The notes under the pieces are model-generated. The model searched no databases. It saw only the letters and a program-made list of their open reading frames with translations, and had not been told where the DNA came from. 64,000 bases of DNA from positions 1 through 64,000 of the forward strand of contig CAIJPN010000024.1 of assembly GCA_903822545.1 (NCBI GenBank), written 5' to 3'. This DNA comes from an uncultured Anaerolineae bacterium (GTDB lineage: Bacteria > Chloroflexota > Anaerolineae > Anaerolineales > Villigracilaceae). This document shows positions 34,649 through 63,421 of the stretch, piece by piece (positions within the stretch are counted from its first letter, which is position 1; every line of letters starts with the position of its first letter). A program made the position numbers and the translations under genes.

Positions 34649-34796
34649 AGTAGATTTTGCTCTCGCGTGCAAATCGGCGGTTTTCCACTGCGGATTTCCT
34701 TTAAAACGGTTTTTGCCATGTGGGGTGCGCAGAGTCCGCTGGGTTTTAAATTACCTGGCCCAACACCTTTCGGCCCACTTCGCCGTGGGCAGAAGC

Positions 34797-34838
34797 CGGA
34801 TGGGTGAACAACTATATCGGATGGGTGAACAACTATAT
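34797..34838. repeat. Two perfect tandem copies of a 21-bp unit
   Basis: The unit starts CGGATGGGTGAACAACT and ends ATAT; it is repeated head to tail without mismatch. It lies about 70 bases upstream of the dnaE -10 box, between divergent promoters. Confidence 0.85.
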
Positions 34839-34903
34839 TTGTTAACACGAACACCCGTTCGAGATATTTTAAGCCAATCGTCAGGTTTGCCAATCTCGCC
34901 GGA

Positions 34904-34912
34904 TGCTATAAT
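34904..34912 (+). promoter_or_regulatory. Extended -10 promoter of dnaE
   Basis: TGCTATAAT fits an extended -10 element with consensus hexamer at 34907-34912. No good -35 is seen, as usual for extended -10 promoters. The start would lie near 34919 and the leader would contain the repeat array at 34954-35012. Confidence 0.55.
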
Positions 34913-34953
34913 CTCTTTGGGTATATAAGTAGGCACGGAAGCAAGTATCACGC

Positions 34954-35012
34954 TTGTGTACCTGTTTCCTTGTCTACTTGTCCCTCATCACTTACCCCTT
35001 ATCCCTAACCGA
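34954..35012. repeat. Octamer/heptamer array that fills the dnaE leader
   Basis: Units in order: TTGTGTAC, CTGTTTCC, TTGTCTAC (octamers), then TTGTCCC, TCATCAC, TTACCCC, TTATCCC and TAACCGA (heptamers). The array ends exactly at the dnaE ATG, leaving no ribosome-binding site. Confidence 0.7.
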
Positions 35013-38000
35013 ATGTCCTTCGTCCACCTTCACACCCACACTGTCTATTCCCTGCTCGACGGCTTCTCGAACATCAAGAAGCTGGTCAAACGCGCCAAAG
35101 AAATGGATATGCCCGCCCTGGCCATCACCGATCACGGCACGATGTTTGGCGTGGTCGAGTTCTATAACGCCGCCAAAAGCGAAGGCATCAAGCCCATCAT
35201 CGGCGTGGAAACATATATGGCCGCTCGCCGCATGAGCGACCGCGATTCTAAGCTGGATAAAAAGTCCAGCCACTTGCTTTTGCTGGCCGAAAACGAAACC
35301 GGCTACAAAAACCTGCTCAAGCTGACCTCCGCCGCCCAGATGGATGGTTTTTACTACTACCCGCGCATCGACCACGAATTGTTGGCGAAACACTCCGAGG
35401 GTATTATCGCCACTTCGGGTTGTATGTCGGCTGAAATTCCGCGCCACCTGTTGGAAGAAAAGCCCGAAGAAGCCGTCCGCCGCATGAACTGGTACTATGA
35501 CGTTTTCGGCCCCGACCGCTTCTACGTCGAACTCCAGCAGCACAACATCGCCGAGATGGTCGACCTGAACAAGAAACTGGTCGAACTGGGCGCAAAATAT
35601 TCGGCCAAATTCGTCGCCACCAACGACGTGCACTACATCAACCTGGAAGATGCTCAATACCAGGATGTGCTGCTTGCCGTCCAGACCGGCAAACTACTCA
35701 GTGACCCCGACCGGATGCGCTACGACAGCCAGACCTTCTACTTGCGCTCGCCGCAGGAGATGAGCCGTCTGTTCGCTGAAATCCCCGAAGCGCTGACCAA
35801 CACCCTCGAAATTGCCGAACGCTGCGAGGTGGATTTGGGCTTCAAGGGCTACCACCTGCCGGAATTCCCCGTCCCAGATGGCTTTACCGCTGAAACCTAT
35901 CTGCGTCACCTGTGCGACCAGGGCCTGGAATTGCGCTACGGCTCCCGCAAAAACGATCCAGAAATCCAGGAACGCCTGGCTTTTGAACTCAACACGATCG
36001 GGACGATGGGCTTCAACGCCTACTTCTTGATTGTGTGGGATTTGTGCCGTCACGCCCGCGAAAATGGGATCTGGTACAACACCCGCGGCTCTGGCGCCGG
36101 TTCGTTGGTCGCCTACTCGCTGTTCATCACCCTCGTCGACCCGATTCATCATCACCTGCTCTTTGAGCGTTTCCTCAACCCGGGCCGCGTCTCCATGCCC
36201 GATATCGACCTTGACTTCCGCGACGACCGCCGCTCCGAGATGCTGGTCTACGCTGCCCAAAAATACGGCGACGATAAGGTGGCGCAAATTATCACCTTCG
36301 GCACCATGGCTGCCCGCGGCGCGCTGCGCGATGTGGCCCGCGTTATGGACATCCCCATCCCCGAAGTCGATAAGGTTGCCAAGCTCGTCCCGAACATCCC
36401 CGGCAAACCTATGTCGCTTTCCGAAGCGCTGGCCGAAGTGCCGGATTTCAAAACCGCTTACGACTCCGACCCGAAGGTCAAAAACCTGATCGATGTCGCC
36501 ATTCACATGGAAGGTGTTGTCCGCAATGCCGGGACTCACGCCGCCGGGCTGGTCATCTCCGACAAACCCATCACCGAATACCTGCCGATTCACCGGCCCA
36601 CGTCCGGGTCAGAAGAATCCCCCGTCAAAACCGTCACCCAGTTCGAAATGGGCATCCTCGACAGCATGGGGATGCTCAAGGTGGATTTCCTGGGCCTGTC
36701 CACGCTGACGGTGATGGCCCGTGCCTGTGACATGATCAAACTGCGTCACGGCAAAGATTATGACCTGAACAACATCCCGCTCGATGACTCGGCCACGTTC
36801 AAACTGCTCGGGGAAGGTAAAACTGCCGGGGTCTTCCAGTTAGAAGGCACGGGGATGACCCGCTGGGTGGTCGAGATGAAGCCCAAGAACCTCGACAACA
36901 TCATCGCCATGGTGGCGCTCTACCGCCCCGGCCCGATGGATTTCATCCCCAGCTATATCAAGCGTATGAACGGCGAGGAGCCGATTGAGTACCGCCATCC
37001 CTCGCTCGCCCCGATTTTTGGCGATACCTACGGCATTCCGGTCTACCAGGAACAAATCATGCGCGCCTCGGTCGAAATCGGCGGGTTCACCCGCTCCGAA
37101 TCCGACGACCTGCGCAAGGCCATCTCCAAAAAGATGGCCGACAAAATCGCCAAAAACAAGGAAAAGTTCATCAAGGGTGCAGTCGAACGCGGTGTGATGG
37201 ACAAAGAAACCGCCACTGGCATCTTTGAAGACTGGGAGCAGTTCGCGCGCTACGGTTTTAACAAATCCCACGCCGCCGACTATGGCCTGGTTTCTGTCCA
37301 AACGGCCTACCTGAAAGCACACTACCCCGCCGAGTATATGTCCGCGCTGATGTCAGTCTTCAAGGACTCCAGCGAAAAGGTTTCACTCTACATCGCCGAA
37401 GCCAAATCACTGGGCATCGACGTGCTCCAGCCCGATATCAACCACTCGCTGCTCGATTTCAGCATTGAAGATCGGAACGATGAAAAAGGTCAGAAACGCA
37501 CCGCCATCCGCTTTGGCATGAGCGCGGTTAAGAATGTTGGCGAAGGCCCGGTGACTTTCATCCTGGAAGGCCGCCGCGAAAAAGGCAGCGACAGCCCCTT
37601 CCGTGACCTGACCGATCTGGCCCACCGGGTTGACCTGAAAGCTGTTGGCAAGCGCGCCCTGGAATGCCTCGTCAAAGTCGGCGCGTTCGACAGCTTTGGC
37701 GAACGCGCTGCCTTGCTCGCTGCACTCGACCAACTTGTCGCGGCCAGTTCCAGCCACTTCCGCGCCGCCGAAAGCGGGCAGATGTCGCTGTTTGGCGCAT
37801 CCACCGGGGTGCAGGTGCAAAATATCAGCCTGCCCAACCTGAAAACCGATAAAAAAGAAGCCCTGGCCTGGGAGCGCGAACTCATCGGCTTGTATCTTTC
37901 CGACCACCCGCTCAAGGCTTATGAAAAGTACCTGACCCAGAGCTTCATTACCAACTCGGCCAACCTGGGCGAACTGGCCCACCAGCAGCCCGTCCGCGTG

Positions 38001-39116
38001 GCGGGTCTGGTTGTTTCCAGCCGCCCCTACAAGACCAAAACCGACAAAATGATGGGTTTTGTGACGCTGGAAGATATGACCGGCAACCTCGAACTGGTCA
38101 TCTTCCCAAAAACCTGGGAAAAATTCCGCCCGTTGTGCGAAGACGGAAAAGTCGTGCTGGCCATTGGCAAAGTGGATTCCAGCACCACCCCGCCCAAAAT
38201 CCTGGTGGATGAAATCCGCACCGATTTTACGGTGTATCTTTCGGCGGATGAACCATCTAACAGTTTTCCCGTTGACCAGTTCTCCGGTTTCCCGCCGGAG
38301 CCGCCAGTTTATCAACCGAACAACCGGATAACCGGACAACCGAATAATCGTCCAACCAGCCAGCCCGATAACCGGCCAGCCATCGTTAAACCGACATCTG
38401 CTACGCTGCCCCGGCCCCCGGCCCCGCCCGTGCCCCAGCCAAACCCGCAAACGTCAAAAGTCGAAAGTCCCGTTTCGCAAAAACCAGCTTCGACCTTTGA
38501 CAGTCGACCTTCGACGCCTAAAACTGCCGAACCTGCCCCCATTCAAACTGCGGATGACGAGTTCGACGACATGCCCCCCGAGCCCGACTTCCCCGATGAC
38601 TGGCATCTTAACGAACCGGCCCCGGCGTATGTCGCGGCTCCAGCCACGCCCATGGATGATATGCTAACGGCAGAGCGGTTAGAGAAACCGCTCGAAAGTC
38701 AAAGGTCAAAGGTCAGCATGACAGTTCCGACTCCCGACCTTCGACCTGTCGATGGCGCCCAGGGCAGGCCTTCGACCTTTGACGCTGCCCTGCCCATCCA
38801 GCCGCCGCACTTGCAGCCGATCGTCTCACCGCTGGCCGAAAAAACGGATGATGGTCAACCGCCGCGCATCATAACCATCTTCCTGCGCCCATCCGGTGAC
38901 CCGGAGCGTGACCGCCGCCGCATCAAAAACGTTTACTTCATCCTGCATTCCAAACCAGGCAAGGACCGCTTCCAGTTCCAGATTTTTGAAGGCGGCAAAG
39001 GCCACCTGATCGACTTCCCCAACGACAACACCCGCCTGACGGCCGAAACTTTCGAGCGGCTGAAAAACCTGCTCGGCAGCGAAGACTGGCGGGTGGAAGA
39101 GATCACCTTCCAATAG
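35013..39116 (+). CDS. dnaE: DNA polymerase III alpha subunit
   Basis: 1367 residues from ATG 35013; the longer frame upstream is repeat sequence. Catalytic subunit of the replicative polymerase. PHP domain at the N-terminus (FVHLHTHTVYSLLDG, ITDHGTMFGVVEF), palm with the catalytic aspartates in MPDIDLDFRDDRR (about 395), YRPGPMDFIPSYIKRMNGEE, VYQEQIMRASVEIGGF, HhH region and an OB fold (VRVAGLVVSSRPYKTKTDKM) at about 990-1060. It then has an unusual linker of about 200 residues rich in Pro, Asn and Ser, coded by octamer and heptamer repeats, before a C-terminal domain (IITIFLRPSGDPERDRRRI to the end) seen in related alpha subunits. The neighbour trpA follows after a hairpin. Confidence 0.96.
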   Translation: MSFVHLHTHTVYSLLDGFSNIKKLVKRAKEMDMPALAITDHGTMFGVVEFYNAAKSEGIKPIIGVETYMAARRMSDRDSKLDKKSSHLLLLAENETGYKNLLKLTSAAQMDGFYYYPRIDHELLAKHSEGIIATSGCMSAEIPRHLLEEKPEEAVRRMNWYYDVFGPDRFYVELQQHNIAEMVDLNKKLVELGAKYSAKFVATNDVHYINLEDAQYQDVLLAVQTGKLLSDPDRMRYDSQTFYLRSPQEMSRLFAEIPEALTNTLEIAERCEVDLGFKGYHLPEFPVPDGFTAETYLRHLCDQGLELRYGSRKNDPEIQERLAFELNTIGTMGFNAYFLIVWDLCRHARENGIWYNTRGSGAGSLVAYSLFITLVDPIHHHLLFERFLNPGRVSMPDIDLDFRDDRRSEMLVYAAQKYGDDKVAQIITFGTMAARGALRDVARVMDIPIPEVDKVAKLVPNIPGKPMSLSEALAEVPDFKTAYDSDPKVKNLIDVAIHMEGVVRNAGTHAAGLVISDKPITEYLPIHRPTSGSEESPVKTVTQFEMGILDSMGMLKVDFLGLSTLTVMARACDMIKLRHGKDYDLNNIPLDDSATFKLLGEGKTAGVFQLEGTGMTRWVVEMKPKNLDNIIAMVALYRPGPMDFIPSYIKRMNGEEPIEYRHPSLAPIFGDTYGIPVYQEQIMRASVEIGGFTRSESDDLRKAISKKMADKIAKNKEKFIKGAVERGVMDKETATGIFEDWEQFARYGFNKSHAADYGLVSVQTAYLKAHYPAEYMSALMSVFKDSSEKVSLYIAEAKSLGIDVLQPDINHSLLDFSIEDRNDEKGQKRTAIRFGMSAVKNVGEGPVTFILEGRREKGSDSPFRDLTDLAHRVDLKAVGKRALECLVKVGAFDSFGERAALLAALDQLVAASSSHFRAAESGQMSLFGASTGVQVQNISLPNLKTDKKEALAWERELIGLYLSDHPLKAYEKYLTQSFITNSANLGELAHQQPVRVAGLVVSSRPYKTKTDKMMGFVTLEDMTGNLELVIFPKTWEKFRPLCEDGKVVLAIGKVDSSTTPPKILVDEIRTDFTVYLSADEPSNSFPVDQFSGFPPEPPVYQPNNRITGQPNNRPTSQPDNRPAIVKPTSATLPRPPAPPVPQPNPQTSKVESPVSQKPASTFDSRPSTPKTAEPAPIQTADDEFDDMPPEPDFPDDWHLNEPAPAYVAAPATPMDDMLTAERLEKPLESQRSKVSMTVPTPDLRPVDGAQGRPSTFDAALPIQPPHLQPIVSPLAEKTDDGQPPRIITIFLRPSGDPERDRRRIKNVYFILHSKPGKDRFQFQIFEGGKGHLIDFPNDNTRLTAETFERLKNLLGSEDWRVEEITFQ
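38313..38384. repeat. Octamer array in the dnaE linker
   Basis: Nine consecutive octamers: CAACCGAA, CAACCGGA, TAACCGGA, CAACCGAA, TAATCGTC, CAACCAGC, CAGCCCGA, TAACCGGC, CAGCCATC. Three units equal eight codons, so the protein repeats QPNNRITG, QPNNRPTS, QPDNRPA. Confidence 0.8.
38453..38783. repeat. Heptamer clusters in the dnaE linker
   Basis: GTCAAAA-GTCGAAA (38453-38466), CTTCGAC-CTTTGAC-AGTCGAC-CTTCGAC (38488-38515), GAAAGTC-AAAGGTC-AAAGGTC (38694-38714) and further CTTCGAC/CTTTGAC units near 38737 and 38769-38783. All are variants of one heptamer, in both orientations. Confidence 0.75.
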
Positions 39117-51949: not shown

Positions 51950-53314
51950 ATGAAACCCACCTTTAAACAACTCGTCTTTACACTTATCTTCCTGCTAACG
52001 CTTTCTGCTTGCAACCAGCCTGCTGCCACACCCGATGCAGCCGCCACACTCCAGGCCGTTTACACAGCCCAGGCCGCCACTGTGGCTGTGTTGCAGACCC
52101 AGGCTGTCGGCCCAACCATGACACCGCTGCCATCCCCAACCTATGTGCTGCCCACATTACCGGCCCTGCCCACCTTTACACCAGGCGCAGTCCTGCCCAC
52201 CCTGCCGCCCATGCCCACCACCGCCCCGGTGACGCTGTGCGACTCGGCCACATTCATCAAAGATGTGACGGTTTCAGATGGCACAAGTTTTGCCGCCGGT
52301 GAAAAATTCACCAAAACCTGGCGCATCCAAAACGCGGGCACCTGCACCTGGAACAATTCCTACGCTGTCGTTTTTGTCAATGGCAACGCCATGAGCGGCC
52401 CGGCCTCTTTCAACCTGGGCGCCACCGTCAAACCGGGTGAAACCATTGATATATCCGTCAACCTGGCTGCCCCCTCATCCGAAGGTGATTATCGCGGCAA
52501 TTGGATGCTGCGCAATGCATCTGGTGTACTCTTTGGGCTTGGCCAGCAATCCAAAACCGCCTTTTATGTGGATGTCAAAGTCAAAGGCGAGATGCTCGGC
52601 GTCTACGATTTCGTCGCAGAATACTGCTCCGCTGACTGGCGCAGCGCAGCCGGTGACCTGGGCTGCCCTGGCAACACCGAAGGCAAAAAAGGCTACGTTA
52701 CCAAAGTAACCAAACCCCAGCTTGAAAATGGCTCTTTTGAAACCCATGCAGCCCTTTTGACGGTGCCCCAATTCGTCAGGAATGGTTATCTCCAGGGTTA
52801 TTATCCTGAATTCAAAATCAAAGATGGCGACCGCTTCCGGGCTATCATCAGCTGCCAGTATAATGCCAGGGGCTGCAATGCTATCTTTGAACTCAACTAC
52901 CAGATCGGCAACGGCGAGATCAAAACACTCTGGAAGTTCAACGAAGCCTATGAAGGTCAATATTACACAGTGGATGTGGACCTGAGCAAACTGGAAGGTA
53001 AAAACGTTAAATTTATCTTGACCGTCCTGGCAAATGGTTCTGCAGATGACGACCGCCCCCTGTGGATTGCGCCTCGCATCGAACGGGTTGCCAGGCTGGT
53101 TACCCCCACTGCCACCCCCACCAAAACTACCACTGCCAGCCCCACCAAAACCGCCACTGCAACCTCCACAGCAACGGTCACGCCGACCACCACTGCTACC
53201 CCCACATCCACCGCTACCTCCACGGCTACCGCTACCGCAACGGCCACTGCCACTTTGACAGAAACCCCTACGGCCACCCCCACAGAAACCCCCACGGCCA
53301 CCCCCACACCGTAA
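51950..53314 (+). CDS. NBR1-Ig-domain lipoprotein 4 with extra domain and Thr/Pro tail
   Basis: 454 residues, the largest paralog. Lipobox FLLTLSAC, Pro/Thr linker, NBR1-Ig domain with CDSATFIKDVTVSDGTSFAA, FTKTWRIQNAGTCTWNNSYA and IDISVNLAAPSSEGDYRGNW. A further domain (about 215-380) has four cysteines and aromatic residues (YDFVAEYCSADWRSAAGDLG, FRAIISCQYNARGCNAIFEL) and may bind carbohydrate, as inferred from its all-beta look. The last 70 residues are a nearly pure Thr/Pro/Ala/Ser tail (TATPT and TATAT units), a likely glycosylated stalk. GAAGGAG precedes the ATG. Confidence 0.86.
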   Translation: MKPTFKQLVFTLIFLLTLSACNQPAATPDAAATLQAVYTAQAATVAVLQTQAVGPTMTPLPSPTYVLPTLPALPTFTPGAVLPTLPPMPTTAPVTLCDSATFIKDVTVSDGTSFAAGEKFTKTWRIQNAGTCTWNNSYAVVFVNGNAMSGPASFNLGATVKPGETIDISVNLAAPSSEGDYRGNWMLRNASGVLFGLGQQSKTAFYVDVKVKGEMLGVYDFVAEYCSADWRSAAGDLGCPGNTEGKKGYVTKVTKPQLENGSFETHAALLTVPQFVRNGYLQGYYPEFKIKDGDRFRAIISCQYNARGCNAIFELNYQIGNGEIKTLWKFNEAYEGQYYTVDVDLSKLEGKNVKFILTVLANGSADDDRPLWIAPRIERVARLVTPTATPTKTTTASPTKTATATSTATVTPTTTATPTSTATSTATATATATATLTETPTATPTETPTATPTP

Positions 53315-61957: not shown

Positions 61958-63421
61958 TCATCGTTTACGAGCTTCGCTCGCAGCACCGCAAAGTATTCCT
62001 ACATTCACCCACAGATCGGGCATGGCAAACGAATCCTGCGAAAACGCCATCAGTGCCAGCGCCGCCAGCGTAAAAATCGAGGCTGCGCCGAGCATTTTCA
62101 GCCAGTCTTCCTCCCGTCGCAGCCTCGATAAAGCCTCTGCCAGCAGCCCCAGCCAAAAAGCAATGAACAGCGCAAAGCCAGCCAACCCGGTCTCTGCCAG
62201 CAGGCGCACATACAGGTTCTTCGGGTTCGGGTATAGCGTCGAATTCGGCGCAAGCGCATCCGCAATCTCAGGCACACCCATGAGCACGCCATCGGGGATA
62301 TTCTGGTAAATATGAAACCCGCTTGCGCCCAGACCCACGCCCGTCAGCGGGTTCAGGTCGAAAGCCGACATCGCCGCCGCAGCATAGGCCACACGCGGGC
62401 CAAGCGAGGCATCGCTGACATAAGCCCAAAAATCGCTCATATCTGATTTCCACAGGCGCGAAATATAGCCTTTTTGCGCCAGGAACAGGCCTGCCCCGCT
62501 CAAAACGCCAATCACCAGCAGGAATAAAACCACTCTCTGCCCTGCCGCCGTGATTCTTGCCCACAAACCAGAATCGCGCTCGAACTTGAATCCAGCCCGA
62601 ACCCAGCCCCAGGCATTTGCCAACAACCCGCGCCCCGCCGCCACGAAAGTGACCCCCCCCGCGAAAACCGCCACCACCAACCCCGAGCGCGAATATGTGG
62701 CCAGCAGCATAGCCAGTGAAGCCAGCAAAAGCACCCAGACAGCCCACGTTCCACTTTTTATTTTCCATTTTTGGTAGAACGTAGAAAGTGGAACGTGATA
62801 TCCTGTCAGCGCCATCCCCACCAGCCAGGGCAAATACACCAGCGCGAGCTGCGCCGCCAGCCAGGATGGTTCGAAGGCAAACCCCGAGATGCGTTTATTC
62901 TTTACCAGCCCGCGCACCGAGAATAATTCCTGAATCTGTTTAAGTTCACTGCGGTAGCCGTGATTCAAACCGTAAAATTGGATTGCGCCCCAAACCAGGT
63001 GTCCCAGTAGCCCTACCAGCAGCCACTTGACTGAGAATTTCAGATCATCTTCGCCCTGGTTCATCCACGCAGATGCGACAAAGAACATCAGCCCAATGAC
63101 CAGTGTCACCCAGGCACGGATGGCGCGTTCCCAATAATCGGCACCGCGCAGCTCGATTGGCGCAAAAGTTGCGCCCAATGTGGTAGCAGCAGCCGCCGCC
63201 AGCAGAAAAGCCACCAAAACGGTGAAACTGCCCGGCCACGGGTTGCGTATTTCACGCCGGTAGAGCCGATAGAGCAGCACCGGTATCAATGCGGCCAGCG
63301 GGTACAGCGCCAGCGGGCGCACATAGGTTCCGCTGCCCATGAATGGCATGAAGCGAAAACTCGTCACGGGCAGGGTGACGAGGATGAGCGCCCAAAGGAT
63401 GCGGGAAAGGCGGCTCATCAT
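61958..63421 (-). CDS. O-antigen ligase/polymerase-like membrane protein
   Basis: 487 residues from ATG 63421 (63418 is an alternative), 4 bases after the stop of the Wzz-like gene; the longer frame runs into that gene. About eleven transmembrane segments. The O-antigen ligase (Wzy_C) signature is LATYSRSGLVVAVFAGGVTF, and the periplasmic loop has NPLTGVGLGASGFHIYQNIP and NPKNLYVRLLAETGLAGFAL. It would polymerise or attach surface polysaccharide. The loop LTGYHVPLSTFYQKWKIKSG is encoded by a 53-base inverted repeat inserted in frame. Confidence 0.85.
   Translation of the reverse strand: MMSRLSRILWALILVTLPVTSFRFMPFMGSGTYVRPLALYPLAALIPVLLYRLYRREIRNPWPGSFTVLVAFLLAAAAATTLGATFAPIELRGADYWERAIRAWVTLVIGLMFFVASAWMNQGEDDLKFSVKWLLVGLLGHLVWGAIQFYGLNHGYRSELKQIQELFSVRGLVKNKRISGFAFEPSWLAAQLALVYLPWLVGMALTGYHVPLSTFYQKWKIKSGTWAVWVLLLASLAMLLATYSRSGLVVAVFAGGVTFVAAGRGLLANAWGWVRAGFKFERDSGLWARITAAGQRVVLFLLVIGVLSGAGLFLAQKGYISRLWKSDMSDFWAYVSDASLGPRVAYAAAAMSAFDLNPLTGVGLGASGFHIYQNIPDGVLMGVPEIADALAPNSTLYPNPKNLYVRLLAETGLAGFALFIAFWLGLLAEALSRLRREEDWLKMLGAASIFTLAALALMAFSQDSFAMPDLWVNVGILCGAASEARKR
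62745..62797. repeat. Inverted repeat inserted in frame in the O-antigen ligase gene
   Basis: Arms CACGTTCCACTTT (62745-62757) and complement (62785-62797) with 27 bases in between. The right half is built of heptamers (GTAGAAC, GTAGAAA, GTGGAAC), like the repeat before trpA. Confidence 0.75.

Follow-up and report, generated by a model that had tools for sequence, protein, structure and literature searches.

A short-repeat array between a fixed promoter and a fixed start codon in the dnaE leader of an uncultured Anaerolineae bacterium and its relatives

Introduction

How is the gene for the replicative DNA polymerase translated, and how is its upstream region maintained, when nearly everything ahead of its start codon consists of short tandem repeats? 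The question is raised by dnaE of an uncultured Anaerolineae bacterium of the Villigracilaceae, which lies in the 64,000-nt stretch of contig CAIJPN010000024.1 analysed here and referred to below as the window. A preliminary description of the locus, made from the letters alone, had reported octamer and heptamer units running up to the ATG in place of any ribosome-binding site, and had left two options, namely initiation that needs no such site or a translation start elsewhere. Here, we examine the array itself, the dnaE leaders of related genomes and the occurrence of similar arrays at other genes, before weighing the explanations that might account for them.

The repeat array and its setting in the window

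The gene occupies 35013–39116 on the forward strand, and its product, DNA polymerase III subunit alpha, matches NCBIfam NF005298 at 1332.5 bits (cut-off 1260) as well as TIGR00594. Upstream of it on the same strand stand four degenerate octamers with the consensus NNCYTGTN (34951–34982), which we split by eye into CGCTTGTG (34951–34958), TACCTGTT (34959–34966), TCCTTGTC (34967–34974) and TACTTGTC (34975–34982), followed by four degenerate, G-free heptamers with the consensus MCTNAYC (34983–35010), likewise split by eye into CCTCATC (34983–34989), ACTTACC (34990–34996), CCTTATC (34997–35003) and CCTAACC (35004–35010). The eight units counted in the preliminary description are thus borne out, and the repeats it placed at 34954–35012 are real; the run begins 3 nt earlier than it stated, and the two bases GA, the only ones between the last heptamer and the ATG at 35013, interrupt what had been called a gapless approach to the start codon.

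The repeats are weak by the standards of Tandem Repeats Finder (TRF), which returns a period-8 array at 34953–34982 (matches 72%, score 32) and a period-7 array at 34977–35006 (matches 69%, score 32). A banded self-alignment over lags 5–10, used as the array score throughout, gives 31 for 34954–35012, a value reached by one of 5000 dinucleotide shuffles, which confirms the earlier claim of a repeat-filled leader; the score of the whole leader (34919–35012) was matched by none of 5000 (shuffle maximum 25). Scored separately the blocks are weaker, the heptamer part being equalled by 106/5000 shuffles and the octamer part by 40/5000. As a background, 374 kb sampled from the same genome, with each locus shuffled once, yielded one score of 28 and none of at least 30. 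The array thus has the head-to-tail 7–8-nt units of the short tandemly repeated repetitive (STRR) type, by both TRF and the shuffle test; a single sharply conserved unit, such as TAACTGA, was not found, the units matching at 69–72% and differing from genome to genome. No second copy of the window's own octamer pair was found in the 5.5-Mb genome in a search at one mismatch, and this uniqueness suggests that the array arose in place.

An extended -10 promoter, TGCTATAAT (34904–34912, forward strand), carries TATAAT at 34907–34912, and a conserved upstream promoter element, TTTTAAG (34867–34873, forward strand), lies about 39 nt 5' of it. Judged by the usual -10 spacing, transcription is predicted to start near 34919; with TATAAT placed just 5' of the repeats, the array would make up nearly the whole 5' leader. 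Inverted copies of the octamers (around 34925–34950) are predicted to pair with the octamer array (around 34955–34981) in a hairpin spanning 34925–34981 of the forward strand. The predicted fold of 34918–35040 has a minimum free energy of -34.5 kcal/mol (z -5.04, with none of 200 shuffles as good) and that of the leader alone -32.7 kcal/mol (z -5.2); it consists of a strong hairpin followed by the G-free heptamer tail, unpaired, ahead of the AUG. The preliminary description had recognised the direct units, and had missed the inverted copies, the hairpin, the promoter and the replacement of units across the family described below.

Further upstream, at 34849–34860 on the forward strand, the palindrome GAACACCCGTTC precedes the dnaE promoter; this word resembles a LexA (SOS) box. 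The motif GAACNNNNGTTC stands 5' of dnaE in 14/113 genomes, as exact GAACACCCGTTC in nine (genera g1, g12, g17 and g20) and as variants in five. In the clade of the window, dnaE may be under SOS control. A 21-mer, CGGATGGGTGAACAACTATAT, is perfectly duplicated in tandem at 34797–34838, in the divergent gap 5' of dnaE.

Two more arrays lie in frame within the coding region of the gene, on the forward strand: one at 38313–38469, in the C-terminal part (score 53), and one at 38692–38752 (score 33), composed of TCAAAGG-type heptamers and inverted copies. Coding-region arrays in dnaE with a score of at least 30 occur in 10 of 77 genomes tested, the window's included; ten of the eleven such arrays are at codons 1000–1299, and the relative G016 carries one of 734 nt. 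Elsewhere in the window, a predicted coding array at 62711–62797 contains a near-perfect inverted repeat (ACGTTCCACTTT ... AAAGTGGAACGT), and coding tandem repeats at 53102–53308 are rich in ACC and CCC codons, with periods of 12 to 24.

Initiation without a Shine-Dalgarno sequence

We gathered dnaE starts from 113 genomes, one per species, 112 from the family of the window (the window included) and one from another family. All 113 have an ATG at the start, followed by a conserved N-terminus, mostly MSF[AV]HL, and a Shine-Dalgarno (SD)-like motif (GGAG, GAGG or AGGA at -20 to -4) precedes only three of them, the window's dnaE having none. Taken together, the universal ATG and the near-absence of the motif point to SD-free initiation as the family rule for dnaE and make a different start unlikely. 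The first of the two options in the preliminary description, that initiation needs no SD, is supported by the same counts and by near-leaderless relatives, in which TATAAT stands 16–20 nt before the ATG (14/109). That the array 'replaces' a ribosome-binding site is too strong, although no SD is indeed present: dnaE of array-free relatives also lacks one, so there may have been none for the array to displace.

Leaderless starts appear, from the spacing of promoter words, to be common in this family. Of 87 TATAAT matches upstream of genes other than dnaE, 20 fall in the 10–14-nt bin before the start, where the control word TAATAT has one match; an SD is missing from 24 of the 26 starts that have TATAAT no more than 22 nt away. 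A case in point is udk, where a -10 word lies 10–16 nt before the ATG in 27/28 genomes; in the exception, G016 (L452), a heptamer array is wedged between TATAAT and ATG. The window's dnaE is not itself leaderless, its TATAAT lying 106 nt 5' of the ATG rather than the approximately 10–15 nt that defines such genes. In the window's genome as a whole, an SD is found at 139/282 genes, against 51/282 after shuffling, leaving about half of the genes without one. When starts were pooled, arrays were significantly more frequent at SD-less than at SD-bearing genes in just one set, the one that includes the relatives' dnaE.

A constant frame and a changing interval

Across the 113 dnaE leaders, the promoter and the ATG are constant and the interval between them is variable. 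In 108 promoters aligned in a set anchored on TATAAT, TGC precedes this word in 97–98%, and TTTAAG occurs within the -50 to -21 stretch in 73. Four of the 113 leaders were dropped, having no TATAAT within 190 nt; in the remaining 109, the interval from TATAAT to ATG ranges over 16–184 nt and, apart from the short class, is mostly 30–140 nt. A further 20 of the 109 were too short for a periodicity test. Of the 89 leaders of at least 25 nt that remain, 57 show 7/8-mer periodicity at p<0.05, where about 4.5 would be expected, and 48 at p<0.01, with periodicity not significant in the other 32. Recurring unit types include TAGTTNNN and TAGTCNNN with inverted copies, an ACGTT type, ACTGRNN heptamers and others. 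TAGTT-type arrays are recognisable in several genera and in one other family; inspection by eye of leaders from other families found an array in 1/13. Folding beats 95% of shuffles in 30/89 leaders, all of them among the 54 that are at least 60 nt long. Positions -30 to -1 are G-poor: of the 57 array-bearing leaders, 55 have unequal G and C there, and in 53 of these G is the lower. Leaders without an array are likewise G-poor.

The units are replaced often. On a tree of DnaE N-termini (109 rows), the minimum number of changes is at least 53 for unit type, as labelled by simple word counts that place the CAGTT type of G016 under TAGTT, and at least 25 for the presence or absence of an array; 200 shuffles of the labels gave means of 67.8 and 36.0, with none as low as observed. 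Since the observed changes lie below all shuffles and are nevertheless many, the arrays are heritable but frequently replaced. Close pairs illustrate this directly: G242 and G203, with N-termini 98.0% identical over 400 amino acids, carry TAGTC and ACTGA arrays, respectively, and unit types also differ within G248/G254 (96.5% identical) and G222/G217 (95.3%). The window's own nearest DnaE relatives follow suit, with G016, G024, G011 and G208 each having an array unlike that of the window, and the near relative G193 having a 33-nt TATAAT–ATG interval classed as array-free.

dnaE as an array hot spot

Similar arrays are dispersed through these genomes. The ACTGRNN pattern has 27 matches in the window's genome (G000), against three for the reversed control, and is present in 25/30 genomes; the TAGTYNNN pattern is present in 23/30, the window's genome not among them. 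Many of the dispersed arrays of these two patterns start no more than a few nucleotides from the preceding gene's stop codon. In sampled gaps other than those at dnaE, arrays were found in 10/232 tandem, 1/53 divergent and 0/48 convergent gaps, a count that wrongly credits G011 and G017 with non-leader arrays and omits a leader array in G024.

Among the genes compared, dnaE is a strong hot spot for arrays. Within the same 30 genomes, a score of at least 28 in the 120 nt upstream was reached at 19/30 dnaE genes, compared with 0/29 for recA and 0/29 for gyrB, both counted from the first start calls and with one of the 30 gyrB loci lost, 3/28 for polA and 0/28 for udk. The starts of the control genes were computer-called and some are wrong, with calls at internal codons in several cases for polA and in a few for recA and gyrB; the polA figure is a recount over 28 of 29 loci, one locus lacking the start motif and the starts in G011 and G015 being set at an internal TTG. 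A phosphatidyltransferase control was excluded, 12 of its 16 starts having been placed inside the gene and four not found. The contrast also holds against other TATAAT-led leaders of at least 25 nt, only 1/37 of which is periodic at p<0.05, compared with the 57/89 for dnaE. In many of these genomes polA is itself SD-less, and an array lies just 5' of its ATG in several of the 28 (L323, L326, L329, L335 and L338). Tolerance alone does not account for the dnaE hot spot.

Explaining the array

Comparison of these sequences shows the array itself, the fixed promoter and ATG, the lack of an SD, the turnover of units and the existence of dispersed arrays. We favour, at a probability of roughly 60%, the reading that the dnaE leader holds one instance of a broader class of arrays: imperfect, often palindromic 7/8-mer repeats scattered through the family's non-coding DNA and remade in place, here between a fixed promoter and a fixed ATG. 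The array would occupy the interval between the extended -10 promoter and the start codon, and it could fill that interval because initiation at dnaE in this family is probably SD-independent. Several relatives are near-leaderless, and the gap from the -10 box to the ATG appears to be precisely where arrays have been inserted or have grown; dnaE would then be read much as udk is, from a start needing a promoter and an ATG alone, with an array grown or inserted between them. The messenger would begin with a 5' hairpin and continue into an unstructured, G-poor tail of C, A and U where the ribosome would locate the AUG, loading there independently of an SD. Growth of the array may proceed through slippage and snap-back copying, and the array is probably tolerated in the main rather than required.

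The strongest competing explanation, which we consider possible but unlikely, is that the leader acts as an RNA element controlling dnaE, in which the hairpin and tail set messenger stability or translation and selection maintains the architecture as the letters change. The folding of 30/89 leaders above 95% of shuffles, the G-poor stretch before the ATG, the marked over-representation of dnaE among array-bearing genes and the spread of TAGTT-type arrays over several genera and another family would all fit such an element. Against it, 11 close pairs read in both directions held far fewer compensatory than broken base pairs, many arrays are hairpin-free (for example G208 and G230, at 0 kcal/mol), 14 relatives have almost no leader, array-free leaders are G-poor too, and Rfam gave no match in 34700–35200 at E up to 1. 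A fixed, conserved RNA structure was dropped altogether, RNAalifold having returned no consensus pair for 14 TAGTT-type leaders and broken pairs outnumbering compensatory ones. We also considered whether an asymmetry of the arrays, with a G-rich 5' half and a C-rich 3' half in 37/44 arrays (34/41 dnaE hairpins and 50/64 other arrays in a second count), reflects an orientation chosen by translation; this was rejected given the G-poor array-free leaders, and because a palindrome is identical on both strands the asymmetry is uninformative about strand choice.

Considerably more doubtful is the idea that the leader is a self-renewing mutable element, in which slippage and snap-back errors of the polymerase remake the arrays and DnaE output in its turn depends on how long the array is and on its hairpin; were it true, replication quality and polymerase dose would be coupled in the family of the window.

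The second option of the preliminary description, translation from elsewhere, is disfavoured. In its concrete form, the true start would be an in-frame GTG at 34956 and the array would encode a 19-residue N-terminal extension, and the frame is indeed open from 34956 through to the ATG; however, the conserved ATG in 113/113 genomes, an in-frame stop within 64 of the 89 leaders of at least 25 nt, the lack of an SD ahead of the GTG as well and the absence of the extension sequence from every relative seen make this highly improbable. Mere coincidence, a pyrimidine-rich, low-complexity leader that only looks repetitive, would suit the degenerate matches and TRF scores of just 32 and is equally improbable in view of the shuffle test, the inverted copies and the periodicity of most orthologous leaders.

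Relation to known repeats and significance

Short tandem heptamers of the STRR type occur in non-coding DNA of filamentous cyanobacteria, and the earlier comparison with them is apt as a resemblance; the present arrays differ in belonging to another phylum, in mixing degenerate octamers with heptamers and in lying between the dnaE promoter and its ATG.

A closer parallel is found in marine Beggiatoaceae, where MacGregor (2015; PMC4679880) describes TAACTGA heptamers just 5' of start codons that are without ribosome-binding sites, and reports such arrays also in Cyanobacteria and Bacteroidetes. As in the dnaE leaders, those heptamer arrays lie within a few nucleotides of start codons, and the ACTGRNN units of several dnaE leaders share their heptamer core with TAACTGA, which reads ACTGATA in another phase. 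The Beggiatoaceae arrays use one fixed unit with a single indirect repeat set, and their downstream genes show no functional pattern (PMC4679880), whereas the present units are of many types and often palindromic, and their arrays recur at a single orthologous gene. In the Nostoc tRNA-Leu intron, the P6b hairpin is described as formed by the pairing of degenerate heptanucleotide repeats (PMC3488679); as in the window's leader, flanking repeat copies base-pair, and hairpin length there follows repeat number, although those repeats form two classes in an intron loop and the dnaE array lies in a messenger leader. As for initiation, leaderless genes with a TA-like signal roughly 10 nt before the start are reported from 4/12 Chloroflexi genomes, at 4.0–5.7% of genes (BMC Genomics 2011; PMC3160421). 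The near-leaderless dnaE and udk of the present family match these, and the array-bearing dnaE leaders, unlike them, are not leaderless.

No published account of such arrays in Anaerolineae or Chloroflexi was found in a search covering few subscription journals. Short tandem arrays before SD-less starts are thus of a known kind; new, as far as we have searched, are their recurrence at one essential gene and the variety of their units. In this family, promoter, start codon and protein of an essential gene persist while the interval between promoter and start is replaced by ever-changing repeat arrays. The dnaE leaders thereby offer a case series for the birth, inversion and loss of 7/8-mer arrays, and a set of natural experiments on the features that a bacterial 5' leader needs in the absence of an SD.
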